Positions 4,325-46,047 of a DNA stretch of 46,425 nucleotides are shown here, one piece after another; positions within the stretch are counted from its first letter, which is position 1, and each line of letters starts with the position of its first letter. The notes under the pieces are model-generated. The model made no database searches and was not told the DNA's origin. It worked only from the letters and a program-made list of their open reading frames with translations. The stretch lies in the IMG/VR virus record IMGVR_UViG_3300042450_001601, positions 1 through 46,425 of that record. One strand, given 5' to 3'. The position numbers and the translations under genes are program-made. The DNA is from a virus.

Positions 4325-4328
4325 TAAA

Positions 4329-6858: not shown

Positions 6859-6865
6859 ATTAAGT

Positions 6866-7408: not shown

Positions 7409-8916
7409 TTACAATAATATATTCCACTCATAAAGATTCAGAATTTAATAAGAAATTTAAACAACATTTATTACAAACTGTTGGGGTTCCTAATCCTCAA
7501 ATATTAGAATACGAAAATCACAACCAATACTCATTATCTGAACTCTATAATTCAGGTATAACCGAATCAATATACGATATAATAGTTTGTTGTCATAATG
7601 ATATTAAACTTGAAAAAAACTGGGGAAAAAAACTATTAAAAGATTTTTCAGATAATGTTGATTATGGTATCATAGGTAAAGCTGGGTCCTGTTATTTTCC
7701 CGAATCAGGGGTTTATTGGGAAAGAATGACACAAACTATGGTTGGTCAAGTTTATCACCACCCAGAAGGGAATAAAAAATGGGTAAACAATTATTCAGCT
7801 AAATTACCGTATTTAATACCCGTAGTAACAATCGATGGACTTTTTATTTCTTTTGATAAAACAAAAATTAAACATGGGTTTGATGAAACAATCGGTCGTT
7901 TCCATTTTTACGATCATTTATTTTGTTTACCAAATTATTTAGATGGAGTTAAAATTGGCGTCACATCTTCATTCGAAATTACACACCAATCTGTTGGTCA
8001 ACCAAACCAAGAGTTTTGGGAAAGTAAGGATAAGTTTTTAGAAAAATGGGGGAAAAATTTACCATTAGATTTATTACCGACTAACGTATATGCTCCTGAA
8101 ATTAATGAAAAACCATTAAAAAACATTGGTAAAGTTGCGATAATAATACCGACTAAAGGTAAAGTTGAAATGTTATTTCAATGTATTGAATCTTTTTATG
8201 ATTATTGTAACCCCGAATTATTCCATATTTTTATTGCAGACACTGGATCGACCGATGATGAAAAAGACGATATAAAAACTCACATAACCTTACATAATAA
8301 TATTTCATTAATTGAATACGATTATTATAATTTCTCTAAGATAAACAACGATATGGTAAATAATCATGTTACCAAAGATTATGAATTCTTATTATTTTGT
8401 AATAACGATATTAAATTATTAAACAATGTTGTCTACGGAATGTTAAAAATTATGAAGGAAAACCCTAGGTCGGGAACTGTCGGTTGTCGATTACATTTTG
8501 GAGATAATACCATCCAACATGGTGGAGTGTTTGCCGGAGTTAATAAAACGGGTCAATTTGTTTTAACTCATAATAATTTAAAATCATATTATAATTTTCC
8601 CACATCATTTAAAAAGGTATTCGGAAATACTGGAGCACTTATGATGATCAGAAAAAAAGTTTTTGAGAAATGTGGGGGGTTCAATGAAAAATATACAACC
8701 TGTTTTGAGGATGTAGAATTAAATGCTCAATGTCGTTTATTAGGGTTTGAGAACTATTTTGACGGTAGTTTAGTATCTTATCATCTTGAGAGTCAATCTA
8801 GAGGTAAAGATGAGGATAATACGAAAGGAGAGTCGATTGATTATAGAGAAACATTATTACCGTTTATTTCTCAAAATTTCAATAGACTACGTGAACATAT
8901 TGTAAATATCAACTAA
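7405..8916 (+). CDS. Two-domain glycosyltransferase (GT2 C-terminal domain)
   Basis: A 503-residue protein. Residues 1-220 form a GT-A-like domain (MITIIYSTHKDSEFNKKF; YDIIVCCHNDIKLEKNW), similar in layout to the StrF-like glycosyltransferase group. Residues 240-480 form a second, classical GT2 domain (VAIIIPTKGKVEMLFQCIES; IADTGSTDDEKDD; FLLFCNNDIKLL; FGNTGALMMIRKKVFEKCGG; CFEDVELNAQCRLLGF, like rhamnosyltransferases). Two active sites on one chain would allow two sequential sugar additions. It ends the first glycosyltransferase run. Confidence 0.8.
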   Translation: MITIIYSTHKDSEFNKKFKQHLLQTVGVPNPQILEYENHNQYSLSELYNSGITESIYDIIVCCHNDIKLEKNWGKKLLKDFSDNVDYGIIGKAGSCYFPESGVYWERMTQTMVGQVYHHPEGNKKWVNNYSAKLPYLIPVVTIDGLFISFDKTKIKHGFDETIGRFHFYDHLFCLPNYLDGVKIGVTSSFEITHQSVGQPNQEFWESKDKFLEKWGKNLPLDLLPTNVYAPEINEKPLKNIGKVAIIIPTKGKVEMLFQCIESFYDYCNPELFHIFIADTGSTDDEKDDIKTHITLHNNISLIEYDYYNFSKINNDMVNNHVTKDYEFLLFCNNDIKLLNNVVYGMLKIMKENPRSGTVGCRLHFGDNTIQHGGVFAGVNKTGQFVLTHNNLKSYYNFPTSFKKVFGNTGALMMIRKKVFEKCGGFNEKYTTCFEDVELNAQCRLLGFENYFDGSLVSYHLESQSRGKDEDNTKGESIDYRETLLPFISQNFNRLREHIVNIN

Positions 8917-21823: not shown

Positions 21824-22633
21824 TTATTGTAATTTAGCTAAGATTGCGTCATAATCAGCATTAGTTAATTTACCCGTTGGGGTAGCAACACCAATTGAAG
21901 TTTGAATTTCTTTATTAAGAGCTGGAACTATTGATGGTTTTTTGTATGTAGATGTCAATTTACCACCAACTTTATTTGGAAATTCCGTTTGACATGTAAA
22001 CGGCACCCATTCTTCATTAGTTGGACTGCCATCATCCCTTAATTGAATATCTCTCGATTGTTTTGTCCCATCCCCCCAATATCTAAAAGTATCGCTTATG
22101 TAGTAATTTTTCCCTGTAACTTTATCCTGACGAAGATCAAGACCATTTAAACACGGAAACTTTCCTAATTTCTCCATAGTTTCCATAGAGTTTTGTTCGT
22201 AATTCGGATCTGGCGCTGGAGTTACGGGTTTGGGAAATAGTTTATTACAAAATGGTTTCAAGTATTTTGTTTCTAAATTCTCATTATTATATAAATCACC
22301 CTTACCAATCACTTTGAATTTACCTGTTATGCAATTATAATTAAGAATTCCAATCGCCGCTCCCATAAATATTTTATCAGTTAATATAAAATTCTTATCA
22401 CTCGATTCATAAAATTTTGTATTTTTAGGAATTTTAAGGGTGCTAGGATGAGCGATCCTAACATCGTTAGGGTGTGTTTCATTCGTTAAAAAATATTCAG
22501 ATCCAAGACTTATTGAATCATTGGTTTGTTCTGAAATAACATTCAGATATTGTCGTTTAGTTGATTCTTTATGAAGATTTAAAATCCTAGTCGATTCTTC
22601 TTCATTTAAAAAATATAATTTTTTCATATTCAT
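21824..22633 (-). CDS. Hypothetical protein with leader like its neighbour
   Basis: A 269-residue protein starting with FLNEEESTRILNLHKEST, which parallels ITESEREKILGLHE of the next gene. VISE follows at about residues 32-35, a possible prohead-protease site. The body is beta-rich. The C-terminus (VPALNKEIQTSIGVATPTGK, then LTNADYDAILAKL) looks like a degenerate peptidoglycan-binding module with the D-G loop changed. Two starts are possible: M1 at 22633 or M3 at 22627. No enzyme motif is visible. Confidence 0.5.
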   Translation of the reverse strand: MNMKKLYFLNEEESTRILNLHKESTKRQYLNVISEQTNDSISLGSEYFLTNETHPNDVRIAHPSTLKIPKNTKFYESSDKNFILTDKIFMGAAIGILNYNCITGKFKVIGKGDLYNNENLETKYLKPFCNKLFPKPVTPAPDPNYEQNSMETMEKLGKFPCLNGLDLRQDKVTGKNYYISDTFRYWGDGTKQSRDIQLRDDGSPTNEEWVPFTCQTEFPNKVGGKLTSTYKKPSIVPALNKEIQTSIGVATPTGKLTNADYDAILAKLQ

Positions 22634-22708: not shown

Positions 22709-22849
22709 GTGATTAAAGGAAACGATTCAGATACAATTAATTACAATGGGTTAGAACGAAACAATCCTAACTTATCGGGTGGAATGGAAGACGATTTAGA
22801 TACAACGTCCACCCTCTTTTATTATCTTAATAGATTTAAATGTCCGTGA
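22709..22849 (+). CDS. Possible small ORF (46 codons, GTG start)
   Basis: A GTG-started frame encodes a polar peptide (SDTINYNGLERNNPNLSGGM, then a C-terminal LFYYLNRFKCP). It fills the only sizeable gap between minus-strand genes, and its 3' end overlaps the convergent adhesin gene by 28 bases. No box, ribosome-binding site or family supports it, so it may be chance. Confidence 0.2.
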   Translation: MIKGNDSDTINYNGLERNNPNLSGGMEDDLDTTSTLFYYLNRFKCP

Positions 22850-23394
22850 GTTTGAATTCTTCTATCATCACTATAGATTCCAAACTCCATCTTCCATATA
22901 TAAACCCCATCTTGACATTTTTTTCCACCATATGTACCATTCCATCTGGCTGAGGTATCATGTGATTCCCATAGAATTTCACCCCACCTATTAAAAATCA
23001 AAAAGGTAAAATCAGTAATATCTATACCATCTGTGATTACAGGATAGAAATATTGATTATATTCATCATTGTCAGGTGTGAATGTATTAGGAACCCAATA
23101 CACCATTTCCTCACAAAAAATAACAACAACACTATAACTTTGGGTATCAGACGGACAATCCCCATTGACGGAATAACCTGTTACTGATATATCATATGTC
23201 CCAGCAACTGACCAATCCATAGTTAACTCGTCCACTAAATAGTGATCACCATTAACTACCCAATCAAAATTCATAGGTATTTGTGAATTAATCGAATATG
23301 TATAAGACACAGATTCCCCCTCACATATCTCAATGACTTGTTGAGAATATGTGAAGAAACCTGTTAAAAATAATATTGTTAAAATTAATTTCAT
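22822..23394 (-). CDS. Exported protein with gliding-motility/T9SS type B sorting domain
   Basis: A 190-residue protein. The Sec signal peptide is KLILTILFLTGFFTYSQ. Residues ~22-92 form a PKD/Ig-like domain (ICEGESVSYTYSI; WSVAGTYDISVTGY). Residues ~97-190 match the gliding-motility-associated C-terminal (CHU_C) domain: WVPNTFTPDNDEYNQYFYPV, FTFLIFNRWGEILWESHD, WNGTYGGKKCQDGVYIWKME. In Bacteroidota this domain sends proteins through the T9SS and attaches them to the surface in a SprF-dependent way. It is the last gene of a four-gene cassette; the preceding stop and this ATG are separated by one base. Confidence 0.85.
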   Translation of the reverse strand: MKLILTILFLTGFFTYSQQVIEICEGESVSYTYSINSQIPMNFDWVVNGDHYLVDELTMDWSVAGTYDISVTGYSVNGDCPSDTQSYSVVVIFCEEMVYWVPNTFTPDNDEYNQYFYPVITDGIDITDFTFLIFNRWGEILWESHDTSARWNGTYGGKKCQDGVYIWKMEFGIYSDDRRIQTHGHLNLLR

Positions 23395-23395
23395 T

Positions 23396-23959
23396 TTAAT
23401 TATGTTGTATCGGAGATAGTGTTAGAATTGGTGTTACTGTAACTGATGTAGTTGTTGTGAACGTACAACCAGACGATGTAACAGTATAAGTTAATGTAAA
23501 TGTTCCTACACCTGATGTGGTAGGACAAAATTGATTACCGACAACCCCAGTCCCTGTAAATACTCCACCAATTGGTGTTCCTACTAAAGTAACACACGCA
23601 GCACCAGTACAGAAAGGCCCGATAGGGGTAATCGTTGGAAGTACTTGGTATATTAAAACATTTAATGTTACGGGAGTACTTAAACATCCACTAGCACTTG
23701 AAGCAACAACACTTACACCATTACTTATTAACCCAGGAGCAGCTGTCGACCAATCCACAACTATTGAATTCGTTGTTTGTCCGGCAGTTATTACACCAGG
23801 TGAAGCAATTGTCCATGTATATGTATACCCCGCACCTAAAGATGGTACCGTATATGTCGATCCATTTGTTTGATAACAAACTGTGTCAGGATTTACTGTT
23901 GATTGAGAATATCCGACTAAGGATATTAATGATAGGACTAAGATTAATAATTTTTTCAT
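23396..23959 (-). CDS. Exported PKD/Ig-like repeat protein
   Basis: A 187-residue protein with signal peptide KKLLILVLSLISLVGYSQ and a PKD-like domain (VCYQTNGSTYTVPSLGAGYT, NSIVVDWSTAAPG, SVVASSASGCLSTP). A second Bacteroidota Ig-like module follows (PFCTGAACVTLVGTP; GVFTGTGVVGNQFCP). There is no T9SS sorting domain; the chain ends ILTLSPIQHN. In Bacteroidota such domains normally lie inside one long adhesin that ends in a CHU_C domain. Here that domain is encoded by the next ORF. Confidence 0.75.
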   Translation of the reverse strand: MKKLLILVLSLISLVGYSQSTVNPDTVCYQTNGSTYTVPSLGAGYTYTWTIASPGVITAGQTTNSIVVDWSTAAPGLISNGVSVVASSASGCLSTPVTLNVLIYQVLPTITPIGPFCTGAACVTLVGTPIGGVFTGTGVVGNQFCPTTSGVGTFTLTYTVTSSGCTFTTTTSVTVTPILTLSPIQHN

Positions 23960-23971
23960 GACTTTTTATTT

Positions 23972-25258
23972 TTAATTATGGATTATGTTGCCAACAACTA
24001 TTGGACTTGGGTTTATGATCGTTACTGTCGCAGTTGATACACATCCAGATCCGTCTGTTACTGTAACTGTGTACGTACCTGATGGTAGATTTGTTGCTGT
24101 TTGTGTTGTTTGAATTGGTGATGTATTCCATGAATATGTATAAGGTGCGATTCCGTTCGGTACCGCAGTTGCTGTTCCATTGGTACCATTATTACAAGTG
24201 GGGTTTGTAAAAGTTGCTGTAGATGTGCAACAATTTAAAACAGCACCAAAACTATAATTAGGATCACCCAAACAAGCAACACTTGTCCAAGATCCCGTCT
24301 CACCATCAGCAGTTGTATTAATGGAAATGTTTAAGTTAGTTCCCGACGCACAGTTTGGTTTTGTTTTAATTGTCCAACAAAATGTCCAAGTACATGCCCC
24401 TGAAGAGTTATTATCCCCATAGTTATTACCTGCTGTACCTCCTGAATAATTATAATAAAATCCAGGACCTGTGATAGTACTAGTGGCTGAACTTGTATTA
24501 CTATTATACCATGTCCACGTACCACTACCTGAACATGAAGATGCGGGTACCTTTGTTAATGTTGTTAAATCCCAACCATTACCAAATGTCGGAATAATAC
24601 CATGTAACCAATTGGCGGATACTTGTGTATATGTTGTTATCGTATAACAAAATGTTACTGACTGATTAGGTAAATAAGCTCCGTTTATGGGGGATGGTGT
24701 TGATGTAAGACTTGAGGTTTGTAAACAATTATTACAATCGTTTGTACTATTAACGGACATGTTAAAATTACCTGACCCTCCTGAAGTCATTCCACTAACT
24801 TGTATGTAGTATGTTGTTCCAGGAATTAATGGTTGGAAAGTTACGCTATTATTACCAGCAACTGTTCCATTATTATCACAGTTAACCCCTGAGAGAGTTG
24901 AACAATTTGTTCCGATCCATAATGTTATTGATGGACTTTGTAATACAGGAGAGGAACCTGGTGTTATATTTATATTGACTTGAGTTCCTGAAGCCACGAA
25001 TTTATACCACACATCTAATGCGGGTGAGGGTTGATTACCCCCCGTTTGACAACCCAATAAATAGGTATAAGGAGATGGTGATGTCGCATTTATTGTGGTA
25101 CCCACCACATTAACAAAAGAACCAACACCACTTGGACATGCCGAGGGTGTTGGTAATGTTCCTAGATTCTGAGCTCCACCACAATCATCGTTTGCTGGTT
25201 GAGCAAGAGTTAATATTGAATTTAAAATAAAGGATAATACTATTATTAATTTTTTCAT
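23972..25258 (-). CDS. Exported SprB-repeat protein
   Basis: A 428-residue protein. Signal peptide [19 protein letters not shown]; then a PPC-like domain ([46 protein letters not shown]) and a Trp/Cys-rich middle ([28 protein letters not shown]). At residues ~345-415 a SprB-type repeat follows ([46 protein letters not shown]). SprB is the mobile cell-surface adhesin of gliding flavobacteria. There is no C-terminal sorting domain. The ATG overlaps the previous stop (ATGA), so translation is coupled to the 1309-residue protein. Confidence 0.8.
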
Positions 25259-28200
25259 TTCATTATTTTTTCCACAGAACCATCTGTGTATGTTACAACC
25301 ACAATTCCCCTATAGTTTTCATTTACCTCTTGTCCAAGTAAATTTACCATAGATGATATTATTTTACCACCGATTCTATTATCGATAGAAATCATATTAT
25401 ATGTTACTGAATTACCGTCATAGTCTGTCTGAGTTAATTGGTAATAATTTATATCATCCGAGTAGTCTAAATCAAAATACCCGTATGTGTTAATAATATT
25501 TGAATTACCAGCTCCATTAACAAATTGTAACTCTAACCATTCGACAGATCCATTTCTATATATCCCTCTCTCTAATGTGAAATAATCACTGTTCACTTCA
25601 GATGCGGTTTTCCATTCTAATGAATTACCATCAACTGTATTGTGACCCGTAAATGATATTAAACTAATAGGTAATGAAACTGGAGTTGATACTCTAATTT
25701 GGAATGTTCCAGTATTGTCCCCGCTATAATCCCACACTCTAATCCATATAGTTTCACCTGCAGTTCTACCAGTCACCTCTATATATGACATTGAATTTAC
25801 TGATGAACTATCATCATTGTATGTTATATATGTTAATGCTGAAGAGGTACCAGAGTATATCTCTATAACAACATCTGTTAATACCAATGCCGATGTTCTG
25901 ATTTGAAAAGTCCCACCAGAAGGTACAACGACTTTATACCAAACATCACCACCATAATAAGATGGTCCTGTTGGTGTTGGTGCGGTTGTGGATGATGTTG
26001 CTCCGTCATTAGTTCCTGTTATATATGTATCGTTAACAACCAATGTAATTGCTCCTGATGCGTTATCATTTGAGGGTGGTTGAGTTGGTGTTGTTATACA
26101 GATAATGAATGTCCCTCTAGACCCAACTGTCGCAGCATAACTATAAACCCTAACATAATACACATCACCAATAGTTAAATCTGTAAATAAAACTGTTTCT
26201 GGTGATGATGAATAATCATCGACAGCACCCATAGATACTAATGAACTCGTATACCCCTCAACAACTAAATCATTCATAGTCCCTCTAGTCACTGTCATGG
26301 TTAAATTAGTAGCCGTTGCTGTGAATTTATACCATACATCATCATCAGATGTACCAGTCGTTGATGAGAGTGTTTGAGTGGCACCAATACTCGTACCCGT
26401 TGTTGTAGTTGTACAAGTGGTACTCGAATTAATCGTTAAAGATATCGCCCCATCACTATTATCATTTGGCATCAATGTGGTGAATGATGAACCAATCCAT
26501 GTTGAATAAGTTGAGCTACCACAATTTGAACGAACCCAATAATAATATAATGTCGAACCAATTAAACTACTTAAATTGGTTGTTACCACACCTGAACCGA
26601 CAGATCCTGTTGGTGTTGTTGTACCATCGGGAGCGGTTGATGAAGTTGATAAATAATAATCATATCCACCCGATGGTGATGACGATGATGCCGTCCATGA
26701 AATAGTTGCAGTCGTAGTTGTAATCGACGAAGAAACTAATAATGTTGGTTCAGTGCAACTAGGTGATGGTTTAATCACAACATTGTCCATATACATATTA
26801 TAACCATATTCAGAATGGAATTTAAACGCCACATATAAAGTTGCGATATTTCCAGCTCCCGCAGGTAATGTTATTGTTTTTTTGGACCATTCACCCGTAG
26901 CTGAAGCCGAACTTACTTGTCTCGGATAAAAAGTTGATGATGTCCATGTGGTTCCGTTAGTTGACCATTCGACTCTCACCCCTTCATTTAAATATGTTCC
27001 AGTGTTAAATGAACTACCATTATTTTGGTACCAATAAAATTCAACATCAACACTTGCAGTTCCTGTAGTGACGACAGCCGGAGTAATTAATCTTTCTTCT
27101 GAACCACTACTCCCACCTACACTACTATATGAATTGTATTTCACAAAATGAGTACCTTCTTGAGGTGACGCGGCAGTACTAGCGGATGATGTAACATATG
27201 AAATTTTAGTTGCCGATTGGACCGCAGCAATAGATGTTGACCAACACGAAGGTATCGTAGCGGCATTAAATAATTGAGTATATGTTAATGCGACTGACGC
27301 ACATGATGTTGTGAATGTATATGTTGACGACGCAACACTCGAACCACACGCATTTTTAGCTATCACTTTCCATGAATGACTTGTTGACGATGTTAATGTA
27401 GATGGTGTATACGAATTGGTTAATACGTTTGCTGTCGGACTTCCAGGTAATGTTGTTCCGATATACACATCATAACTTGTAGATCCAGCAACTGCGACCC
27501 AAGTTAATGTTGGAGTTAAGCTTACCCCCGTCGATGCTGTAGTTGGAGAGGATAACGTAGGTGTTGCAGGAACTGCACTAATAACAATTGCTGCTGACGA
27601 CGCACTACCCCAACAACCACCTGATGTATATTGAGATCTTATATAATATGTTCCTGATGTTGTTGCAACATATGTACTTGCAAAACTTGTAGTTGCAACT
27701 CCTGTACTCGTTGTTTGCCAATACCATGTTTCCCCAGCAGGTGCCGAACCATTTGCCGTTAACGTCACACCAGGAGATATACATTGTGGTGAATTTGTTG
27801 TCGGTATGCCGGGTGTTGATGGAGAACCAACTATTGTGATTGTAACTTCATTTGAAACCGTAGCTGACCCACAAGTAGGTGTTGATGTACATACTAAATA
27901 ATACGTACCAACCGTTGTGAAATCTGTACCTAATGGTGTATATGAAGATGAGGTTCCTGTCACGTTTGTTATCGCTCCACCTGAAATTGATCGTCTACCC
28001 CATTGTCTTGCGGTGATTGTTCCTCCCCCCGTTTCAACAACAGATACAGATGTTCCATTACTACCTAAACATATTGATTGGGTAGTACTTGATGAAACTA
28101 CTACGGCAGATAGATTAACACCCACATTTCCTGACACCGCAACATTTTTAGTTGTTGCACTCGTACTAACCAATGTTATGTTTCCTGATGGTGTTCCTGT

Positions 28201-29154
28201 TGATGCTGTAGATTGTAATCTGACATATATTGTTGTTGACGCAATTGTACCGGCAGCACCTATCACTAACGCTGACGAACTTGTACCAATACTACTTGCA
28301 AAGGTAGAACTTGTTGACACTTCGAACCCAACTGGGGGTGTTATTGTTATACCAGCTAACATATTAGTTCCCGTTACTGTAAAGTTTTGAATACTAGACG
28401 CAGTACCTGAACACGATGAAAACGCCGATAATGTAGAAACCGATGGCGTTATAATTGGAGATCTCCTCCAACTAAAGGTTGTTCCTGAAGCAGGTTTTGA
28501 AGTACTAACATAATTTACGGTTGAGTTATTCGCAGAACCGGCGGATGTATTATTAAGCCAACCCGTACTACCGGTTTTAGTTCTGTTATTAAAATCTGTA
28601 GCCGCAGAACCTCTTAAACCTACTTGAATAACTGATGATGTGGATGTCCCCGTATTTGACCCATATATTATATCTATAGCATTAGTTGTCTCATATAATC
28701 TAATTTGACAGTTCATGGCGTCTGCTTGCCACGCTGAACCAGTCCATCTATCAACACTTGACCATTGACAAACATATATTCTATTTGGTGATGTTCCCAA
28801 AACTTCTGATCTACATATTGATCTCAAATCAAACGCAAAAGCTGAAATAGCAAGGTTTGTACCCCCTGATGACAATGGTGTATATTGAGTTGTTGATGGG
28901 GCATTAGACCCTAATACAAGAAAACCATTTGTACTTGGTCTTGCCACAGTATATCCAGTTCCATTATAAGTAAATGTAAACGGTATTGTAAAACTATAAT
29001 TTGCGTTATCTGTTTGAGTAGCATTGTGTGCGGTACCACTGGTGATGGCGGTATAAGTTCCAGTACTTTGTGAAAATGTGTAGTTGGTTGCAACTTGTGA
29101 GTGGGACAAACCAAATGCCCATAAAAAAGTGATAATAAATAGTATTTTTTTCAT
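25255..29154 (-). CDS. Giant exported adhesin-like protein with T9SS type A sorting domain
   Basis: The ATG at 29154 is preferred over 29184 because it places MKK directly before the signal peptide [19 protein letters not shown], giving ~1299 residues. It has a beta-sandwich ([20 protein letters not shown]), Bacteroidota Ig repeats, FN3-like domains ([20 protein letters not shown]), a MAM/cleaved-adhesin-like sandwich ([20 protein letters not shown]) and two PPC-like domains ([22 protein letters not shown]). The C-terminus is a type A T9SS signal: [40 protein letters not shown] and [17 protein letters not shown]. It is Thr/Ser-rich and probably surface-exposed. Confidence 0.85.
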
Positions 29155-29169
29155 GACATGTATTTTACT

Positions 29170-29176
29170 ATAAATA
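29170..29176 (-). promoter_or_regulatory. TATTTAT box for the T9SS cassette
   Basis: It lies 15 bases before the 29154 start and is the only box for the four-gene unit. This places the host-like genes under the phage's own late-type control. Confidence 0.6.
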
Positions 29177-29267
29177 TACATCAATAAAACAATAATATAA
29201 TGAAAAAACTATATGAATGTATAAATACCCCCTTCTAGTTATTATTTATGAATAATTGATAGATAAA

Positions 29268-30060: not shown

Positions 30061-31950
30061 TTATCTCAATTCTCTTAAATCGAATGTTCTAACACCATCA
30101 ACGGTAATGCGGCCATAAAACCTGTTGTTCACCATTTTTTTCGCGTATCTTGTCATTATACCTTTAATCGGTGTAAAGTTGAACGGATTGTACATTGTAG
30201 GTGTTAATTGTAATGGTACGTATGGTGCGTAGATGTAACCTGTGTCTAACAATGACGTTCCTTTGTGTCCAATCAAAACTTGGTTTGGTGGGAAGTAAGG
30301 GTCACGGAAAACTTGGTAACGACCAGCTAATGTTCCAACTCTTTCAATACCCATGTTATATTGGTCTTGTTCAGGAGAAGCATTAGATACGTGGAAGTAT
30401 TCTAAATCGTCAAAGATAGCAGAAACCTCAGAAGAAACAACGATCCAGTTAGCCCCACCTCTTAAAGTAGATTTGTGGATTTGTGCTGACAACTGATTGA
30501 TTGCTGTAATCAATGTTTGATTCCAATCTTTTTGAGTGTAGTTAGTTGTAGCAGAAATTCTTCTCCAACCATTGTAATCCCAACGTAAGTTCCATGCTGC
30601 ACCTTTACGTAAATCTCTAAGGATTTCACGATCGATTTCAGCAGCAACTTGTTCAGACAATAAAGCTGTTAATTCAGCTTCAGCATCGATGTTATGGAAT
30701 GCACTAACATCTTGAGCTAACTCAGGAGACCATTGTGCTCTTAATTTTCTTTCAGTAACAGATACTGTAACAGAATCCAATTCGAAAGAAACCTCACCGA
30801 TTTTATCTTCGAATTCCATTTCTTTGTAACGTCTGAATACTGCTGTAAATGCAGTAGGATCAACATCAGCACCAAGAGTAGTTCCTGTGTAACCATCTAA
30901 AGTAGAAGAACCACAATCAGCACATGCTGGACATGATAAATCAACTTCTAAATAGATACAACCTGTTGGTGAACAGATGTCATTGTATTGACCACCATTA
31001 CCATTAGATGGCCATGTTGTTTGAGCCATACTGTTTAATCCTGATACAATTCCTTGACCGTATTGTTGAGTAACAACTCTGAACAATAATGAATTTGGTT
31101 GGTGAGCCGCGTTAAAAGCGTTTTGACATTCAGTTGACGCAGTACTTGCAGACCATGTAGAGTCATTATAAGCTCCGTTAGCGAAAATTCTTAAATCAGA
31201 TAAGAAAGTTTCAGAATCATATTCGTTACCATCAGGTCCGATTAATTTTCCTGTACCTACATTTGCAAATCCACACATTTTAATAATTACTTTTCTAACG
31301 TTTTGGTCGTTTAATTCACCATCTAAGTCAGCTAAAGCACCATTACTCCAAACTTGGATATCTGTACCAACAGTAACTGCTGACCATTGTCCTTTAGAGT
31401 AATCGAATAAACCTGGAGGGTCTAATTGTCCTTCATTTCCTTCATAAAATAAATCGTAAAGATTTTTCTTACCGTAAGTTGAAGAAGTACCATAACCAAC
31501 ACCAGCTTGTCCTTGTGCTGCAGTTAAACCATCAACCGCACCGATTGGTCCGTAATGTTCACCTGATGTACCATCGTAATCATTAGCTGGTGTTTGAGCA
31601 GTTCCTCCATCATACCCTTGAATTTTAGGTACGAAGTAGAACAATTTACCGATAGGTAAGTTCATTGCTTGTACAGATACGATTTCATTCGCTAATAATT
31701 TAGAGAATACACGTCTAACGATAGGGAAAACTACAGTTTCAAATGAACCTGAAGAACCTTCTGAAGTCGCTTCGTTTATTAAGTGAGACGCTTGATTCTC
31801 ATATAACTGAGCTACGTTCTCTTTTAGGTGACCTTTAAGGCCTTCTAGGAATCCTAATTTATCCCATTTGTTAATAGTATCTTCTTTAATAACTTTAAGG
31901 TGTTTTAACCCTATGTTACCAACAAGACCTGATTCTAATAATGCTCCCAT
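30061..31950 (-). CDS. 23: Major capsid protein (gp23-like)
   Basis: A 629-residue protein of the T4 gp23 family. The N-terminal ~60 residues form a helical propeptide ending HLINE, followed by ATSEGSSGSF, a prohead-protease site like T4's cleavage after Glu65. Then come VVFPIVRRVFSKLLANEIVS and VQAMNLPIGKLFYFVPKIQG, the gp23 N-arm pattern ('vR...p.lia.divgvqpm..ptG'). The C-terminal part has ISATTNYTQKDWNQTLITAI and WIVVSSEVSAIFDDLEYF. It is about 100 residues longer than T4 gp23, including a Cys-rich insertion (LSCPACADCGSS). It ends the head operon; the leader is A/C-rich with no Shine-Dalgarno. Confidence 0.9.
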   Translation of the reverse strand: MGALLESGLVGNIGLKHLKVIKEDTINKWDKLGFLEGLKGHLKENVAQLYENQASHLINEATSEGSSGSFETVVFPIVRRVFSKLLANEIVSVQAMNLPIGKLFYFVPKIQGYDGGTAQTPANDYDGTSGEHYGPIGAVDGLTAAQGQAGVGYGTSSTYGKKNLYDLFYEGNEGQLDPPGLFDYSKGQWSAVTVGTDIQVWSNGALADLDGELNDQNVRKVIIKMCGFANVGTGKLIGPDGNEYDSETFLSDLRIFANGAYNDSTWSASTASTECQNAFNAAHQPNSLLFRVVTQQYGQGIVSGLNSMAQTTWPSNGNGGQYNDICSPTGCIYLEVDLSCPACADCGSSTLDGYTGTTLGADVDPTAFTAVFRRYKEMEFEDKIGEVSFELDSVTVSVTERKLRAQWSPELAQDVSAFHNIDAEAELTALLSEQVAAEIDREILRDLRKGAAWNLRWDYNGWRRISATTNYTQKDWNQTLITAINQLSAQIHKSTLRGGANWIVVSSEVSAIFDDLEYFHVSNASPEQDQYNMGIERVGTLAGRYQVFRDPYFPPNQVLIGHKGTSLLDTGYIYAPYVPLQLTPTMYNPFNFTPIKGIMTRYAKKMVNNRFYGRITVDGVRTFDLRELR

Positions 31951-36109: not shown

Positions 36110-39100
36110 TCAATCTTTTAGAAGTTTACTCAATTGATCCTCCATTTCTCCTAAAGAATTTTTTCCTTTGGATAAATCAATGTATGAATCTTCGTCAGTT
36201 AATGAGTTTGATTCTAATAGAATTTTTAAGTTATCTCGTTTAAATGATTCTGGTGTCATTCCCGCATCTCCTCCTGGTTCAGGTCCTGGAGGTGGTGGTG
36301 GAGCCATTGATTCTCCTCCTCCCATATCACCGCCTGGAGGTGGTGGTGGAGCTCCTGCTCCCGCATTTGCTGTCGATCCTGATTTATTACCATACAATTT
36401 ATCAACATTATCAAAGATACCGGAATGAGTGATGATTGTTGCTGTGTTAGTCAACTCTGCTCCAACCGCTTTCTCAATACGTTGTTGTTGTAAATCAAGT
36501 TTAATTTCTTCGTCTGAGAATCCTAAAATATGTTTTTTAGCCCATGATACCGATACTGGAGCAATTCCTTCAATACCCGCAACAGCGTCTTTATATAATA
36601 AAATCTTCTCTTTCCACAAATCAACTTTTAATAAATCTGCTTGAGAAGATGGATTTGTTAGACCTAACGTAAAGTTTGATAACTCGTCCTCAAACCCTAA
36701 TAGGAATAAGTGAATAATCGCAATCTTATTCATTTCAGCAATCATACATTTTTGAATTCTATTAATAGTTCTTGCGAAACGTATATCCATTAATGATAAA
36801 TCTTTCCCACCACCAACAGGTTCTTCAAAACCTAAGAAAGCTTTAGGTACACGTAGAGCGGTTAACAATTTCTTTTGAATATATTCAATATCCGCAATTT
36901 CAGATAAATTGGTTGCTCCCGGTAATGTCTCAATTGGTGATGCTTGAGCTGGATCACGAACAGGTATAAAGTAATCTTGGTCAACAGCCATTTGATTGAA
37001 ACGTAAATCTACATTACCTGTTTTTGAATCTACAACTTGATCTCTTTTAAATTTGTTCGCCACACGTTGTACATATGCCTCAACGTCTTTGTCATCCATA
37101 TTACCAACAAAAACTTTAAATACTCTTCTTTCTGGAGCTCTTGATGTTCTATAGATTAACATCGCATCTTCAGATAACAATAACTGTTTCCAAATACGTC
37201 TCGCTTTTTCTAACATAGAAGTTCCGTATGGAAGTTTTCTATCATCACCTAATAATCTAAAGTGGGCAATTTCCCATGAATTAAATTCCATGTCTTTAAC
37301 CTTCCACTTAAATCTCAGACCTTTATTTTCAACTGGTTCATCAATGTTTTGTTTTGCTGCTTGGGACGCGACACCTCTCTCCAAACGTTCAATTTCAATG
37401 TTCGGTAGTTGTTGACATCCAATAATACCTTTTTCAGAGTCTAATTTTAAATAAACGAAATTATCCCCATATTTACAGTTGGACAAAAACACTCCAGAAG
37501 TCCTTGAAAATGAACCATTTACGTCCTTACCTAACACCGGAAAGTTATGTCTATCGTGTTCTCCGTTAGGGCCAACAGCCTCTAAACAATAGACATCTGA
37601 TGTTTCATTTAATTTAACAACAGAAACAACTTTATGGTTTAATAAGGTTTTTTCTTTTGTTTTACCTAAATAAATCGATTTTGCTTTTATATAGTCTTTA
37701 TCTAAAATAAGGATTGGTTTAATCGACAAAACAAAATCAAAATAATTTTGATTTGTTTTTCTAAAAATAACTTTATTCAGTGTGGTTGAATTAATTGATT
37801 TACGTATATCTTTCCTTAAAGTATAATTTTCTTTAAAAAAATTAAGAAAGTCCTCGTCATTTTTTAATAATTCTGATAATTTATTAATTCCGACATAATT
37901 TTCAGAATTTATAATTAAATTTGATACGTATTCTAAACAAGCATCACTAATTTCAATAGTCATGCGTTTTTTAGTTTTTTCTATAAATTCTTTAGACCCC
38001 CAATTATTCAACATTTTTTCAGAACGAATTTCATTATGTTCTGTATGTAAAACACTATTGTTATATTGTTCAAAATATTTAGGATATATTCCTGACATTT
38101 CCTTAGATAGTCGTTCTCTTCTTTTATCTGACCTTAAATACTTATCAATACCGTCCATTCTTTTTTTAACAACTTCTGGTGACCCCAATATTTTATCAAA
38201 ATGTTCTACATGTAGTTTAAAATGGTCTGAATGTGTTAATCTAATTAAATTATTAGGGGTATTATTTAATTTATTAAAATCATTGTGATGTGTATCAAAT
38301 TGACAACCAATAGATTTTTCATAGTCTAAATCCCTAACACACTCATGTGCAACTAAAGAATGTGTAAATTTATATTTAGTGGAATTAGGGTTATACACTT
38401 TTTCATATCCCACGATACAATCTTTTTTCTTTTCACTTTTTCTACTATAAAACGGCATCAAAGATTGACCTTCAGTTAAATTGTCAGCTCTTTTATATGA
38501 CCCATCTCTAAGCATATATTCATGATCGGGTGTTGTGTCAATATACGTTCCGTCATCTAATGTGACTCTTATTAGTTCACTATCCTTTCTAGTTAAGTCG
38601 CACCATATAATTTTACTAGGGACAATTGACTTTGTTCCGTCTTGTATTGCGTAAGACCATATCTCTTCATTGTTTTTTATTCTATCAGACAATTCTTTAA
38701 TAGTTATCTCGGTACCATCTAATAATGGTATCATACTATCTTCTCTAATAGGGGTATTTCTCACCCACATAGGTAAGTTTGTATTAACATCCATAACGTT
38801 ATTAAACAAATCCGCCAATATTGATTTGATTCTTTTTGATTCAGAATATATTTGTAACATATATCCGTTCTCATCGACCGTTGTTGATTCTTCTCCATAA
38901 ATGTCTAATGCTGCGGATATTTCTGGAGTATACTCCATACTTTCATAATCGTAAAACGACGCCAATCTTGTTGGTTCATAATAAACCGATTGGGTATACA
39001 TATTACTTTCAATCTTTGTCCACTGATTTGCTAAGTAATATGTTTGTTGAGCTTGTAATAACTCTTTATCGTATTCTTGTTTAGATGTTGTTTTTAATAA

Positions 39101-39214
39101 GTCTTTTCTATCAAACTTATATGTTGGGTAATCTTGGTTTAATAAGGCGTTTGGGCCAAATGCGTGTGATAACCTCTGCCAAACCGTTAAATTTCCGTTG
39201 TCTCTATTTTCCAT
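36110..39214 (-). CDS. 20: Portal protein (gp20-like) interrupted by an intein
   Basis: A 1034-residue open frame; without the insert the portal would be ~609 residues (T4 gp20 has 524). N-extein (1-154): YESMEYTPEISAALDIYGEE, NTNLPMWVRNT. C-extein from Cys580: CKYGDNFVYLKLD, MEFNSWEIAHFRLLGDDRKL, PYGTSMLEKARRIWKQLLLS, APERRVFKVFVGN, EPVGGGKDLSLMDIRFARTI, all typical of gp20. The C-terminus has a Pro/Gly-rich stretch (GAGAPPPPPGGDMGGGESMA) unusual for portals. The portal forms the dodecameric DNA channel of the head and should need splicing to work. Confidence 0.9.
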   Translation of the reverse strand: MENRDNGNLTVWQRLSHAFGPNALLNQDYPTYKFDRKDLLKTTSKQEYDKELLQAQQTYYLANQWTKIESNMYTQSVYYEPTRLASFYDYESMEYTPEISAALDIYGEESTTVDENGYMLQIYSESKRIKSILADLFNNVMDVNTNLPMWVRNTPIREDSMIPLLDGTEITIKELSDRIKNNEEIWSYAIQDGTKSIVPSKIIWCDLTRKDSELIRVTLDDGTYIDTTPDHEYMLRDGSYKRADNLTEGQSLMPFYSRKSEKKKDCIVGYEKVYNPNSTKYKFTHSLVAHECVRDLDYEKSIGCQFDTHHNDFNKLNNTPNNLIRLTHSDHFKLHVEHFDKILGSPEVVKKRMDGIDKYLRSDKRRERLSKEMSGIYPKYFEQYNNSVLHTEHNEIRSEKMLNNWGSKEFIEKTKKRMTIEISDACLEYVSNLIINSENYVGINKLSELLKNDEDFLNFFKENYTLRKDIRKSINSTTLNKVIFRKTNQNYFDFVLSIKPILILDKDYIKAKSIYLGKTKEKTLLNHKVVSVVKLNETSDVYCLEAVGPNGEHDRHNFPVLGKDVNGSFSRTSGVFLSNCKYGDNFVYLKLDSEKGIIGCQQLPNIEIERLERGVASQAAKQNIDEPVENKGLRFKWKVKDMEFNSWEIAHFRLLGDDRKLPYGTSMLEKARRIWKQLLLSEDAMLIYRTSRAPERRVFKVFVGNMDDKDVEAYVQRVANKFKRDQVVDSKTGNVDLRFNQMAVDQDYFIPVRDPAQASPIETLPGATNLSEIADIEYIQKKLLTALRVPKAFLGFEEPVGGGKDLSLMDIRFARTINRIQKCMIAEMNKIAIIHLFLLGFEDELSNFTLGLTNPSSQADLLKVDLWKEKILLYKDAVAGIEGIAPVSVSWAKKHILGFSDEEIKLDLQQQRIEKAVGAELTNTATIITHSGIFDNVDKLYGNKSGSTANAGAGAPPPPPGGDMGGGESMAPPPPPGPEPGGDAGMTPESFKRDNLKILLESNSLTDEDSYIDLSKGKNSLGEMEDQLSKLLKD
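37478..38752 (-). mobile_element. Intein with HNH endonuclease in the portal gene
   Basis: Codons 155-579 of the portal frame (about 425 residues). Block A-like start PIREDSMIPLLDGTEITIKE; block B-like TYIDTTPDHEYMLRDG; HNH core near residues 308-336 (DTHHNDFNKLNNTPNNLIRL, then SDHFKLHVEH); block F-like VYCLEAVGPN...RHNFPV; C-terminal end GVFLSN followed by Cys580. Removing it joins RNT to CKYGDNF, as expected for gp20 homologues. The first residue appears to be Pro (or the preceding Thr), not Cys or Ser, and the penultimate His is Ser, so the splicing mechanism is atypical. The N-terminal edge is uncertain by a few residues. Confidence 0.85.
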
Positions 39215-40425: not shown

Positions 40426-43400
40426 TTATAATAAATAAGTTGTATCTTCTAACATCGTACCCCCCACTAAAATATTTGGAGAATATGCTGTCCCATATGT
40501 TGTATCGGTAAATGTGTTTGAAATTCTAAATCCAACCGCACAATTATCGATTACCGAATAAACTTCAACGTCTTGAGCTGTCCCCGTATTTGATATTATT
40601 TGTATTGGAGCTAATCCATTTGCAACCTTTAAATATGCCTGATTAATTAATTGTATTTTACCTCCCGTTGCCGTTTTTCTTAATAATCCCGATTTAGAAT
40701 CTGATACCGCACATAACAATTTACCACCACTTTGTTGGTATGTACCACCAGAGATTAATAATGTTGGTGTACTAGTTGCTGATTCTGTGGTAGATCTTAA
40801 TAATTGTATTGTCCCACTTTTATTATTTAACGTACCTGTTATATCCGCCGATTTATTGATATGTGAAAATATACCATACACGTTAATCGTTCCAGCACAA
40901 CTAGATATGTTTCCAAAATTAGTTTTATATAAATTTAATGTTGATGTTGCGTCAACAGAAATAAAGGGTACAGATGAATAAGTAGTGTATGAAGGTCCTA
41001 TTACATTATCTAATATATCTAAAGTTGCTGAATTTGTTAGAGTTATGTTTCCAATACCATTAATACCTGAAACTATCGACGCCATACCCGTTGCTACCAC
41101 TTTTGCATTAGAAACAGATATACTAGTTGTAACAGTTGCAACTGTAGTTGAAACACCCAGAAAAATTGATGTTCCTCCAACCACCGTTATATTACCGTAA
41201 ACCACACCATTAAATGTACAAATTCCTTGTACAGATACAGTTCCTAATATTTTACCATTAAATGTTTGTAACAAATCCGTATTACTTGAACCCAATGAGT
41301 GAGCAGTACCCGTAACGGTACTATTAACTACACCTCCACTACTTTGTATTGAAAGATTCCCCGTTATTCTACCACTTGTAAATAAATATCCGCTAGAAAC
41401 TGAAGAAAACGCTGTTATCGAAGTTGGACAAATTAAATCACCATCAAAAAATATAGTAGCGAATCTTAGTCTAATACCACTCAAAAGTCCATAATAATTA
41501 CCCTTTATGGTAGATACTCCACCACTTTCAATATCCGCAATTGACCCAAAATTCGCTAAGAAACTATCACATAATAAATATAATGAATCAAATTTTGAAC
41601 TACCATTTTGATTACAATCTATTTGATATCCAGTACCACTACTCGAATATGTTGTTGGATTTAAAAATACTTTTACAACTGAACTCCCATTTATAGATAA
41701 AAATTTACTTGATGCGGATGTTCCGTATAAAAAACCACCTTTAAATACTATTGGTACTACAGGACTAGTAGGTGATAACAATACTCCTGAGAATGATATG
41801 GTTGAAGTTTGAGCATTTATAAAAAAACCTTGTTTAAACCAATTAGAAACCCATACAAAATTACCGTTCAGAATAAGTTCATAAATAGTCCACCAAGTTG
41901 TAGTAATAGTGGCTGATGCTGTACATAATTGACTTAATACAATTGTGTTGGATGTCTTACTAACAACCACTGAATTATATGGGATGCCAGTACCAGTAAT
42001 AAATTGTCCTATAACAATATTAGCCGTAGAACTTACTGATGTTAATGTCGCACTACCATTTGCAGTGGTTGAGGTAACCGTTCCCGTATTAGTTATGTCT
42101 GATAATGCGTATTCTACTGTTAAGTATGGTGTGTTAATATTTCCTCGACCTGTTGAATTAGTCCCATTAATTGAATCAACATAAATTTTATTAGCTTGTG
42201 GTGAAGAACTCGCTGGTAAATTTTGATAAGTTGTTGCCGATATTGTTGTAGCACTAACCGAATTCATCAATGTATTACCAGTAACTGTTAAATCTCCATT
42301 GACTGTTAAACCAGATACACTATCAAACGATGCTGATATGTTAGGTTGTCCTTGATTTTGTTCTATAGTAAATGTATTTGTTGTTGGAGAATATGTATAT
42401 CCAGTGACATACGTATCAAGACTTGTAAATGCACTTAGTGGGGTGTATTCAACATCACCATTTGATGAATTTCTACTTAAAATTTCCGTATTTGAATTAT
42501 TAAGTGTTGGTACATAATTTAAGTTTAAATAAGGAACATAAACCGTATCATTTGTTGAACCTGTAATATTTTGTCCACCTAACACCACACTTCTATCTCC
42601 ACCAACAACTGAATTGGTTGAATGGATAAATGATGTATTACCGCTGGCGATTGCGTTATAACCAGCAGAATGGGAATACGAACCAATAGATGTCGTACTA
42701 TAACCTTCGGAGTGTGATGAAATTCCAATTGATTTTGTTAAAAACCCTTCAGAGTGTGAACTTTGACCGATAGAAGTTGTTCCTTGTCCTTCGGCGTGAC
42801 TATTATCGCCCGTCGATATATTTCCAGTTCCTTCAGAGTGAGAACCCGTACCTAAGACTATTGTCGCCCACGAGCTACTTAAATTAGTATAATCTGCAAC
42901 ATAACTACCAGTGGTAATCGTGACATTATCTAATTGTATTGTAAAGTTTGGAGCTGAATATGAAATTGTATTATAAGTGTATAAATTATTATCTAATATG
43001 ACTTCACCCCCACCCAAAGTAAATTGAGAGGTGTAATCAACATTATTCGATATGGTTATTAACCCAGCAACTACTGAGGATACTGGAAACGCTCTCCAAC
43101 CTGATTGTGTACCATAACCTTCAGCGTGGCTGTAATTTCCAAATGTTGTTGTTGATCCACCTTCAGCGTGGCTCTGATTTCCATATGTTGATGATCCATA
43201 ACCTTCTGAGTGACTATAATCCCCATAAGCGTATGAATTATATCCTTCGGAGTGTGATGATACCCCATATGATACCGTTCCCGTTCCTTCTGAGTGTGAA
43301 TAATTACCAAACGCTTTAGTACCATCTCCGGCGGAGTGGGTACCATTCCCTAAGGTAGTGGTCGCTAATGGACTATTTAAATTTAAGAAATCAGCAACAT

Positions 43401-46047
43401 ATGTTCCAGTATTGACGTTAGCATCATTTAATTGAATTGTAAAATTTGGTGAACTGAACGCAATTGTGTTATATCCGTATTGAGTGTTATCTAATATAAC
43501 AATATTACTATTAAATATAGAAGTGTAATCTACGTTATCTGATATAGTTATTAAACCGGACACTACTGATGTAACAGTAAATCCCCTCCAACCGGAAATA
43601 GTTAAATTACCTTCTGAGTGGGAATAATTACCGATAGCTTGAGTACTAGTACCTTCACTATGTGAATAATCACCAATTGCTGTTGTTATATAACCTTCTG
43701 AGTGTGAACTATTACCTATAGTTTCACCACCATATCCTTCTGCGTGTGAATTAATTCCAGATGCGATTGTACTATTACCTTCTGCGTGAGAATTAGCTCC
43801 AATTGTTTGAGAACCAAATCCTTCTGTGTGACTATATTGACCGTCTGCCGTTGTTTGGTTACCTTCAGCATGTGAATATGATACAGATGCTATTGTTGAA
43901 TAACCTTCGGAATGGGAATGATCTCCGGAGGATCTAGTATTATTACCTTCTGCATGGGAAGCGTCTCCTGTGGCTTGAGTCGAAAACCCTTCTGCATGTG
44001 ACCCATAACCAGACGCTAACGTAATATCACCACCCGTTTCGGAAAAATCACCTAATGCTTTAGTACCATTACCTGTTGCATGGGCACCAGTTCCAGCAAT
44101 AAAATTAGCTAATGGACTATTTAAATTTGAGAAATCAGCTACATATGTTCCAGAATTAACTGTAGTATCATCTAATTGAATTGTGAAATCTGGGGAAGTA
44201 AATGCAATGGCATTATATGTATACACTCGAGTATCTAATAATACTTCACCACTATTAAATATAGAAGAGTAATCTACGTTATCTGATATAGTTATTAAAC
44301 CTGCCACTACTGATGTTACAGTAAATGCTCGCCACCCGGCTGTCGTTAAAGTACCTTCAGCGTGAGAAGTTAGTCCAATTGCTCGAGTTCTGTCACCTTC
44401 AGCATGAGAATAATCGCCAATTGCCGTTGTAGTAGCACCTTCTGCGTGTGAAGAGTACCCTGCTGATATTGTTCCGTAACCTTCAGTGTGAGAATAATTA
44501 CCAATAGCTTGAGTACTAATACCTTCTGCGTGTGACGCTTGACCAGCAGCTACTGTGTCACCACCTTCTGTGTGAGAACCATATCCTGGGGATACATTAC
44601 CGTCACCTTCAGCGTGGGAATATGGTCCACCATACACTTGATCACCAGTCCAATTGAGAGGGTTTAGATTTATGTTTCCGACAACCGCGGTTGTAGTTGT
44701 TATACTAGTATCTATTAATAAAATTTCAGTTTCGGTTCCATTAAACGATGTTGAGTCAATTATTAATGTGATTGTTGCGTAACTATTATCATACGCCAAA
44801 TCATTAAGATATAAATAATTTCCTGAAGGATAATCGGTTGATACATCACCATAGGATCCATCTAATGTAACTAAACCAGCCGATACTAATATTGCTAAAT
44901 ATCCATTATCCCCACCGGTTTTAGTACTATAACCTTCAGCATGTGATGCATAACCAGATGCTACGGTAGTGTCACCTTCTGCGTGACTATATTGACCTAC
45001 TGTTGTTGTACTAGCACCTTCTGCGTGTGAATAATCACCACTAGCTATTGTAGCAGCACCTTCTGTGTGTGAATGACCACCATATGCTAAAGTAACTTTA
45101 CCTTCTGCGTGTGAATATGAACCAGATGCGATGGTACCTTCACCTTCTGCGTGTGAATAATCCGCAACTGCTGTTGTGATATTACCTTCAGCATGTGATG
45201 ATTTTCCAGATGCTGTTGTACTAGTACCTTCTGCGTGAGAATTATTTCCAATAGCTACGGTATTGTCACCTTCGGCGTGTGAATAACTACCAGATGCAAT
45301 TGTACCAACGCCTTCTGCGTGTGATCCAATCGCTAATGCCGTTGTACTAGTACCTTCTGCATGTGAATAATCACCGGACGCTAATGTTAGAAGCCCTTGT
45401 GATGTTGAACCTATAGTTGTTGCACTTGTTTGAGCCCCCCACGCCGTAGAATCATCCCCCAGAGCTAAAGTTTGATTACCCCAAGCAACTGACCTATCCC
45501 CCGTAGAGTCTAACCCCGTACTATTAATCGCTTTAATTGATGCGGTTCCTGTAGTTCCTGATGTCCAATACGTGTCTGAAACTATTGGTAAATTTTGATA
45601 AGTTGTTGCCGATATTGTAGTAGCACTAACCGAATTCATTAAAGTATTTCCTGTCACAGTTAAATCACCGTTAACGGTTAATCCTGTTACAGAATCAATA
45701 GTTGCGGTTAAATCAGGTTGACCGTTGTTTTGATTAATTGTAAAAACATTTGTATTGTAACTAAAACCTGTAACATATGTGTCAGGATCTATTGGTAAAT
45801 TTTGATAAGTTGTTGCCGAGATTGTATTCGCAGTTAGACCACTTTGGAATATTGTATCTCCCGTCACGGTTCCCCCGCTTAATGGTAAAAAAAATGAATT
45901 TTCTAAAATATAATCTTTTAAATCATCTATTTTAGTTTCACTAGTTGTTCCTGTTGGGTTTATATAACTAACAAAAGGGACAATATCGGTTACAGTGTAA
46001 CCTGTATGACCAATATATGGAAGTTGAGATATTTTTACGTTTGACAT
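40426..46047 (-). CDS. Giant tail fibre with SHAEG beta-roll repeats
   Basis: An 1873-residue protein with no signal peptide. Residues 1-180: attachment region (KISQLPYIGHTGYTVTDIVP; GGTVTGDTIFQSGLTANTIS; LTVNGDLTVTGNTLMNSVSA). Residues ~181-1160: about 45 copies of a 14-residue repeat with core SH(A/S/T)EG and spacer like xxTxASGxY, similar in periodicity to the YadA-head left-handed beta-roll. The run is broken by four ~90-residue inserts. Residues ~1200-1290: second LTVNGDLTVTGN block. Residues ~1300-1873: beta-helix-like C-terminal domain (INTPYLTVEYALSDI; LSIQSSGGVVNSTVTGTAHS), which may bind or cleave a host glycan. No S74 autochaperone is seen. Confidence 0.8.
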   Translation of the reverse strand: MSNVKISQLPYIGHTGYTVTDIVPFVSYINPTGTTSETKIDDLKDYILENSFFLPLSGGTVTGDTIFQSGLTANTISATTYQNLPIDPDTYVTGFSYNTNVFTINQNNGQPDLTATIDSVTGLTVNGDLTVTGNTLMNSVSATTISATTYQNLPIVSDTYWTSGTTGTASIKAINSTGLDSTGDRSVAWGNQTLALGDDSTAWGAQTSATTIGSTSQGLLTLASGDYSHAEGTSTTALAIGSHAEGVGTIASGSYSHAEGDNTVAIGNNSHAEGTSTTASGKSSHAEGNITTAVADYSHAEGEGTIASGSYSHAEGKVTLAYGGHSHTEGAATIASGDYSHAEGASTTTVGQYSHAEGDTTVASGYASHAEGYSTKTGGDNGYLAILVSAGLVTLDGSYGDVSTDYPSGNYLYLNDLAYDNSYATITLIIDSTSFNGTETEILLIDTSITTTTAVVGNINLNPLNWTGDQVYGGPYSHAEGDGNVSPGYGSHTEGGDTVAAGQASHAEGISTQAIGNYSHTEGYGTISAGYSSHAEGATTTAIGDYSHAEGDRTRAIGLTSHAEGTLTTAGWRAFTVTSVVAGLITISDNVDYSSIFNSGEVLLDTRVYTYNAIAFTSPDFTIQLDDTTVNSGTYVADFSNLNSPLANFIAGTGAHATGNGTKALGDFSETGGDITLASGYGSHAEGFSTQATGDASHAEGNNTRSSGDHSHSEGYSTIASVSYSHAEGNQTTADGQYSHTEGFGSQTIGANSHAEGNSTIASGINSHAEGYGGETIGNSSHSEGYITTAIGDYSHSEGTSTQAIGNYSHSEGNLTISGWRGFTVTSVVSGLITISDNVDYTSIFNSNIVILDNTQYGYNTIAFSSPNFTIQLNDANVNTGTYVADFLNLNSPLATTTLGNGTHSAGDGTKAFGNYSHSEGTGTVSYGVSSHSEGYNSYAYGDYSHSEGYGSSTYGNQSHAEGGSTTTFGNYSHAEGYGTQSGWRAFPVSSVVAGLITISNNVDYTSQFTLGGGEVILDNNLYTYNTISYSAPNFTIQLDNVTITTGSYVADYTNLSSSWATIVLGTGSHSEGTGNISTGDNSHAEGQGTTSIGQSSHSEGFLTKSIGISSHSEGYSTTSIGSYSHSAGYNAIASGNTSFIHSTNSVVGGDRSVVLGGQNITGSTNDTVYVPYLNLNYVPTLNNSNTEILSRNSSNGDVEYTPLSAFTSLDTYVTGYTYSPTTNTFTIEQNQGQPNISASFDSVSGLTVNGDLTVTGNTLMNSVSATTISATTYQNLPASSSPQANKIYVDSINGTNSTGRGNINTPYLTVEYALSDITNTGTVTSTTANGSATLTSVSSTANIVIGQFITGTGIPYNSVVVSKTSNTIVLSQLCTASATITTTWWTIYELILNGNFVWVSNWFKQGFFINAQTSTISFSGVLLSPTSPVVPIVFKGGFLYGTSASSKFLSINGSSVVKVFLNPTTYSSSGTGYQIDCNQNGSSKFDSLYLLCDSFLANFGSIADIESGGVSTIKGNYYGLLSGIRLRFATIFFDGDLICPTSITAFSSVSSGYLFTSGRITGNLSIQSSGGVVNSTVTGTAHSLGSSNTDLLQTFNGKILGTVSVQGICTFNGVVYGNITVVGGTSIFLGVSTTVATVTTSISVSNAKVVATGMASIVSGINGIGNITLTNSATLDILDNVIGPSYTTYSSVPFISVDATSTLNLYKTNFGNISSCAGTINVYGIFSHINKSADITGTLNNKSGTIQLLRSTTESATSTPTLLISGGTYQQSGGKLLCAVSDSKSGLLRKTATGGKIQLINQAYLKVANGLAPIQIISNTGTAQDVEVYSVIDNCAVGFRISNTFTDTTYGTAYSPNILVGGTMLEDTTYLL
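40431..40437 (-). promoter_or_regulatory. TATTTAT box before the 40421 gene
   Basis: It lies 9 bases before the start and overlaps the last codons of the giant fibre gene. Confidence 0.5.
42570..45510 (-). repeat. 42-bp coding repeat array (SHAEG units) with four insert domains
   Basis: About 45 units of 14 codons. Three inserts (around 44040-44345, 43310-43600 and 42830-43105) are near-copies at DNA level and begin with GWRAF/GWRGF followed by SVVAGLITIS and later FTIQLDD, GTYVADF. A fourth, divergent insert lies at about 44630-44920. Confidence 0.8.

Follow-up and report, generated by a model that had tools for sequence, protein, structure and literature searches.

The Cryophage genome encodes T9SS type A cargo, which was proposed to use the host system (PMC7468147), and in crAss-like phages ORFs with BACON repeats carry T9SS sorting domains near head genes (PMC6949934). 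Type B substrates depend on carriers of the PorP/SprF family in limiting supply, and one such carrier can be shared by orphan type B substrates (PMC12618676; PMC12635249). The SprC-SprD-SprB-SprF gliding operon of Flavobacterium johnsoniae has, like the phage locus described here, secreted partners upstream of a type B protein, in that case an adhesin with SprB repeats. Bacteroidota type V pili and chaperone-usher pili are built by donor-strand assembly, in which the terminal strand of one subunit completes the next. For donor-strand assembly the precedent we draw on is PMC4789730.

The window, by which we mean the whole stretch of DNA analysed (46,425 nucleotides), is a 46-kb virus record, and its recognised gp23, portal and prohead protease identify it as a T4-like phage. 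We consider the chances somewhat better than even that three proteins encoded in it, a tip (A), an adaptor (B) and a base (C), form a small strand-donated fibre on the surface of the infected Bacteroidota cell, with a base that leaves through the host T9SS and is anchored by a PorP/SprF protein of the host. The model is built on observed features, namely gene content, C-terminal tags, gene order, fusions, homology and the phages' having no carrier gene.

The four-gene locus and its proteins

Four consecutive, co-oriented ORFs at 22822-29154 on the minus strand encode P4, A, B and C, in this order. All four proteins have N-termini of the Sec type that end in x-[SA]-Q, as is typical of Bacteroidota (signal peptides were judged by eye and with a simple rule), and the four minus-strand genes with Sec signal peptides listed in the earlier note are thus real. 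That note also took them for true phage genes, with which the viral carriers agree: gp23 was found in 16 of the 19 carrier records, 14 of them over cut-off. A chimeric join of host DNA at the locus was rejected, as the same four genes lie close to gp23 on a 281-kb contig from a separate metagenome. In the window gp23 is at 30061-31950 by profile match, and the protease and portal are recognised too, placing head genes on that side; on the other side PHROGs recognise none of the supposed tail genes, so that of the proposed position between tail and head genes only the head side stands.

Two TATTTATA boxes lie upstream of P4, at 29169-29176 and 29220-29227 on the minus strand (span 29169..29227). 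Of 43 genes, 16 have TATTTAT in sense in the 80 nt before them, against a mean of 2.2 in mononucleotide shuffles; among the 16 are P4, the cassette's first gene, and many virion genes. The count of TATTTAT over the whole window is not above chance. Over the same upstream distance A, B and C have no such box in sense, and the box that the locus had been said to share with virion genes is therefore shared by P4 and not by the other three. Because a box precedes P4 and none precedes A, B or C, which nearly abut, P4-A-B-C is likely to be one transcript.

P4 (25255..29154, minus, ATG at 29154) is an adhesin-like signal-peptide protein of 1299 aa. The type A T9SS sorting domain attributed to it was not recovered, since TIGR04183 gives no match in P4 even at E<=10. 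Over its last 164 aa P4 shares 38% identity with a second phage protein, which has the same short type-A-like NLLGQ... tail, and "type A" is, from the sequence, a resemblance only, with the tail below the profile threshold. The N-terminal part of P4 (window 28361-28960) has 47-64% DNA identity between the window and L005 and the rest is far less diverged; strong divergence of this part is as expected of a binding tip.

A (23972..25258, minus), the proposed distal tip, is a 428-aa signal-peptide protein ending in the tag VGNIIHN (23975..23995, minus). It is the SprB-repeat protein of the earlier description, having one PF13573 repeat (24122..24220, minus; 32.9 bits, cut-off 28), which matches phrog_26672, annotated as a virion structural protein. 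B (23396..23959, minus), the proposed adaptor, is a 187-aa signal-peptide protein with two Ig-like domains, ending in LSPIQHN (tag at 23399..23419, minus). Its PKD_6 match (4.3e-9; 23663..23893, minus) fits the expected PKD/Ig protein and starts at profile position 10 of 82, with the first strand missing. A fold search with B returned general Ig-fold matches only; its second domain matches All3314 (PDB 7b5h; 1.2e-6), which we take to be part of a cyanobacterial contractile injection system. C (22822..23394, minus), the proposed base, is a 190-aa signal-peptide protein with an N-terminal PKD-like domain and a CHU_C, or T9SS type B, sorting domain (22840..23094, minus). This last domain, also predicted earlier, matches both PF13585 (CHU_C; 5.4e-13) and TIGR04131 (4.3e-11, 42.8 bits against a cut-off of 35, profile 3-85 of 85) over cut-off. 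The Sec signal peptide of C, MKLILTILFLTGFFTYSQ..., is conserved among relatives by eye and simple rule, and the N-terminal domains of B and C are homologous (hhalign 93.5%, E 2.4e-7). PHROGs hold no family for B, C or P4.

Elsewhere in the window, an in-frame intein containing an HNH endonuclease sits in the portal gene (36110-39214, minus) at about residues 158-546 (TIGR01445, HNH PHROGs), and beside the portal and head genes a 1,873-aa protein (40426-46047, minus) has stretches resembling trimeric autotransporter adhesins. A start motif like MKKIILTESQLxxII is common to many phage genes around the cassette in L018, L055 and L074, and perhaps also present at window 21824-22633; it may serve to target internal head proteins to the capsid.

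The cassette in other phages and in bacteria

In IMG/VR, 160 related stretches were confirmed by profile search; once near-identical copies had been removed, these gave 66 non-redundant viral B genes. All 66 end in [ILV]xH[ND], mostly LSPIQHN. A tagged A is directly upstream in 61 of the 62 testable cases, and a CHU_C gene directly downstream in at least 57 of 62, a lower bound in that the distance rule missed the C gene in L066. By gene order and tags, the last three genes, A, B and C, are a conserved phage cassette. The P, I and H of the PIxH[ND] tag are invariant across 41 diverse B proteins. Of the 227 ORFs in the viral loci for which a signal peptide is predicted, 99 bear the tag. Another 27 tagged ORFs have no predicted signal peptide; 26 of these proved on inspection to be A or B members with missed or truncated starts and the remaining one a chance match, the only such hit among about 1,480 other ORFs. 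In the phage collection no cultured phage has the cassette, all matches being uncultured records.

Apart from the window and its 281-kb relative, where the cassette adjoins gp23, phages carry it far from that gene; since adjacency to virion genes is confined to the window's lineage, late expression is at best suggested for that lineage. When the window is compared with L005, P4-A-B-C forms a high-identity island in diverged flanking DNA. Values of dS are 0.12-0.28 for A, B and C versus 0.71 for gp23, and dN/dS of the three genes is 0.10-0.19, which together with the island suggests that P4-A-B-C is swapped between phages as a unit under purifying selection. On phage contig L008, genes for a subtilisin-like protein (3876-5528, minus) and a CUB/GEVED protein (5635-7851, plus), both with type-A-like C-termini, adjoin the A-B-C cassette, which has HD tags.

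A is the most variable part of the cassette, its body varying among phages with the tag constant. In the 642-kb phage LR756502 a CHU_C protein of 1,670 aa has an N-terminus with 65% identity to the window's A. The tip domain of many A proteins is also the N-terminus of a large host SprB-repeat CHU_C adhesin, so a phage would display a host-like tip; of 119 genomes from the class, 34 have relatives of this domain, mostly one each. Large adhesins of this kind, with an A-like N-terminal tip, were seen at L340 3667-8079, L341 3139-7557 and L342 2043-7187.

Chromosomal relatives of B sit in A-B-C operons whose A and B tags are matched (HN/HN, HD/HD, TPTN/TPTN). The A/B tags read NHY/QHF in L095 and IHN/QHN in L098, both beside guaA, YHQ/YHY in L099, YHD/FHD in L303, L327 and L329, and FHN/FHN in L328, with PorP/SprF following in L327 and L328. 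A different yet again common end, LTPTN/ITPTN, is found in L300, and L302 is a mixed case (3606-5674, minus) in which tags IQHRN and IQHKD surround a chromosomal protein with a type-A-like, not CHU_C, ending. The tag is rare, a true tagged C-terminus being present in only 5 of the 21 loci fetched from a PI[YF]H[ND]-stop search, in four genomes. That it is frequent as a peptide across Bacteroidota genomes was rejected, matches to the PI[YF]H[ND]-stop DNA pattern in 149 genomes being about as numerous as those to the reversed control. The idea that the terminal HN is intein-like was also dropped: A and B have no splicing-domain match, and nothing follows the N.

In a tree of B, all viral sequences form one clade (SH-aLRT 98) next to L095, and the fused proteins described below all lie on one branch within it (support 92); long bacterial branches and an L327 row cut at the wrong domain make the bacterial order in this tree unsure. 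Given a viral clade beside bacterial B and the nesting of the fusions, the split, tagged form appears to be older, and phages of this clade seem to have acquired it a single time and fused it a single time.

Fused chains and the proposed fibre

One phage clade, with the 634-kb phage LR745206 among its members, has A, B and C joined in single chains of about 650-820 aa. Most of these retain a [GS]PI-like segment at both junctions, and none of 19 has H[ND] at either. As read from sequence, this fusion and the LR756502 protein are Rosetta-stone links of A to the CHU_C base. Matches to PKD_6 start at profile positions 6, 8, 10, 10, 13 and 13 in split B and C, compared with 2, 4 and 5 in fused chains and 1-5 in ordinary tandem host proteins; in fused L219 the match begins at PIVVGPI, a segment that corresponds to the terminal part of the window's A. 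The N-terminal PKD_6 domains of split B and C thus appear to be without their first strand, and in fused chains the tag would correspond to it. With only 6 residues between its mature start and first cysteine, C would have no room for this strand in cis.

AlphaFold predicts the body of B well (mean pLDDT 91) and shows the tag behind it as a coil. The residues equivalent to the tag in a fused chain form beta-bridges at both junctions, in a single-chain model of modest confidence, with pLDDT averaging 60 overall and about 70-90 around the junctions, in which we infer the bridge partner: since both models contain the upstream domain, the tag-equivalent segment probably pairs with the downstream domain. 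Sequence profiles and single-chain models agree with an acceptor domain that would lack its first strand.

A carrier encoded by the phages themselves was rejected, PorP/SprF (PF11751) being found in none of 19 viral records. Each of two host genomes has 3-6 copies. As the phages encode no PorP/SprF, C would have to use a host carrier. We infer the following route. A, B, C and P4 would cross the inner membrane by Sec, and the host T9SS would take C across the outer membrane by way of its type B (CHU_C) domain, leaving it bound to a host carrier of the PorP/SprF family. B would join C and A would join B, the [GS]xIxH[ND] end of each supplying the missing first beta-strand of the next N-terminal PKD_6 domain, in the order tip-adaptor-base with A as the distal tip. 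The displayed tip may alter how the infected cell adheres or glides, in part perhaps because host adhesin carriers would be occupied. Its use to the phage might be attachment to new hosts, aggregation, exclusion of other phages (a block on superinfection) or interference with gliding.

As an alternative, the tag could act as a minimal C-terminal signal of a new kind, for sorting or retention, with A and B being independent T9SS substrates read by the host carrier and not subunits of a fibre. The terminal residues are among the most conserved, stand at the very C-terminus and are the same in A and B of an operon, and A and B, which have no sorting domain, require some route across the outer membrane. 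Such a signal would not, however, lead one to expect a phage clade that has lost the tags and joined A, B and C into one chain, nor that the strand which the tag resembles should be missing from B and C, and we think it unlikely, at roughly one chance in five.

The proteins might also be parts of the virion, either decoration or tail-associated Ig-like proteins, having T9SS-type folds without secretion. Ig-like domains are common on virions, the genes of the window are near gp23 and under the same box, and the SprB repeat of A matches a virion structural family. Against this, every part in every relative has a signal peptide, which makes incorporation into virions less likely; the type B domain is complete, chromosomal operons built alike have PorP/SprF, and other phages carry the cassette far from gp23, so that we give this reading a small chance, about half that of a sorting signal. 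Still more improbable, to our minds, is that host adhesin genes are recent passive passengers with no role in infection: their bacterial ancestry is clear, but a single viral clade spanning dozens of diverged phages, together with purifying selection (dN/dS 0.10-0.19), a fixed gene order and exchange of the cassette as a unit, disfavours it.

Returning to the strand-donated fibre, a more general form of the model is slightly short of an even bet: Sec-exported Ig/PKD subunits would carry a tag that completes the next subunit, only the last would need a sorting domain, and Bacteroidota phages would have taken up this kit, giving a minimal host-tipped fibre on host carriers. If true, this is an undescribed assembly principle for T9SS surface proteins, and phages build a multi-part adhesive structure on the infected cell using the entire host route of secretion and anchoring. 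The tag of about seven residues would then be a testable rule for which Bacteroidota surface proteins assemble together, and natural minimal T9SS fibres, of three proteins each under 450 aa, could replace the giant gliding adhesins that are hard to study.

Comparison with known systems

Cryophage resembles the cassette in encoding proteins with T9SS sorting signals and differs in that these are single type A proteins (endoglucanase, glycoside hydrolase, PA14); the part of that report cited here mentions no type B domain, A-B-C cassette or C-terminal tags (PMC7468147). The crAss-like BACON ORFs are like the window in being T9SS-sorted and near head genes, but have their BACON repeats in one chain, with no three-gene cassette or tags in the part of the report cited (PMC6949934). 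Unlike SprC-SprD-SprB-SprF, the phage cassette has no SprF, and C has 190 aa, compared with more than 6,000 there. The SprC and SprD of relatives have no tag, and SprC itself has a CHU_C-like end, unlike A and B. The identification of A and B as SprC and SprD was rejected by their C-termini, Flavobacterium SprC and SprD being without the tag.

The bacterial L327 and L328 operons share with the cassette its order, matched tags, PKD_6 N-terminal domains and a CHU_C domain on the last protein; they differ in being chromosomal, in their larger A and B and in having PorP/SprF next. The C-terminal region of the solved grappling hook protein GhpA of Aureispira (PDB 9flp) matches C at 8.4e-8, and GhpA is a bacterial single chain of 5,898 aa, unlike the three-protein phage cassette. 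By analogy with donor-strand pili, a strand of one subunit would complete the next in the proposed joining of A, B and C; the phage parts differ from donor-strand pilins in that they would undergo no lipoprotein processing and that the C-terminal strand is proposed to lie on a T9SS-linked Ig/PKD protein. In the literature searched we found no description of the tag or of a type B three-part tag-bearing cassette. Phage-encoded T9SS cargo has already been published, and it is the type B, three-part, tagged form that appears to be new.
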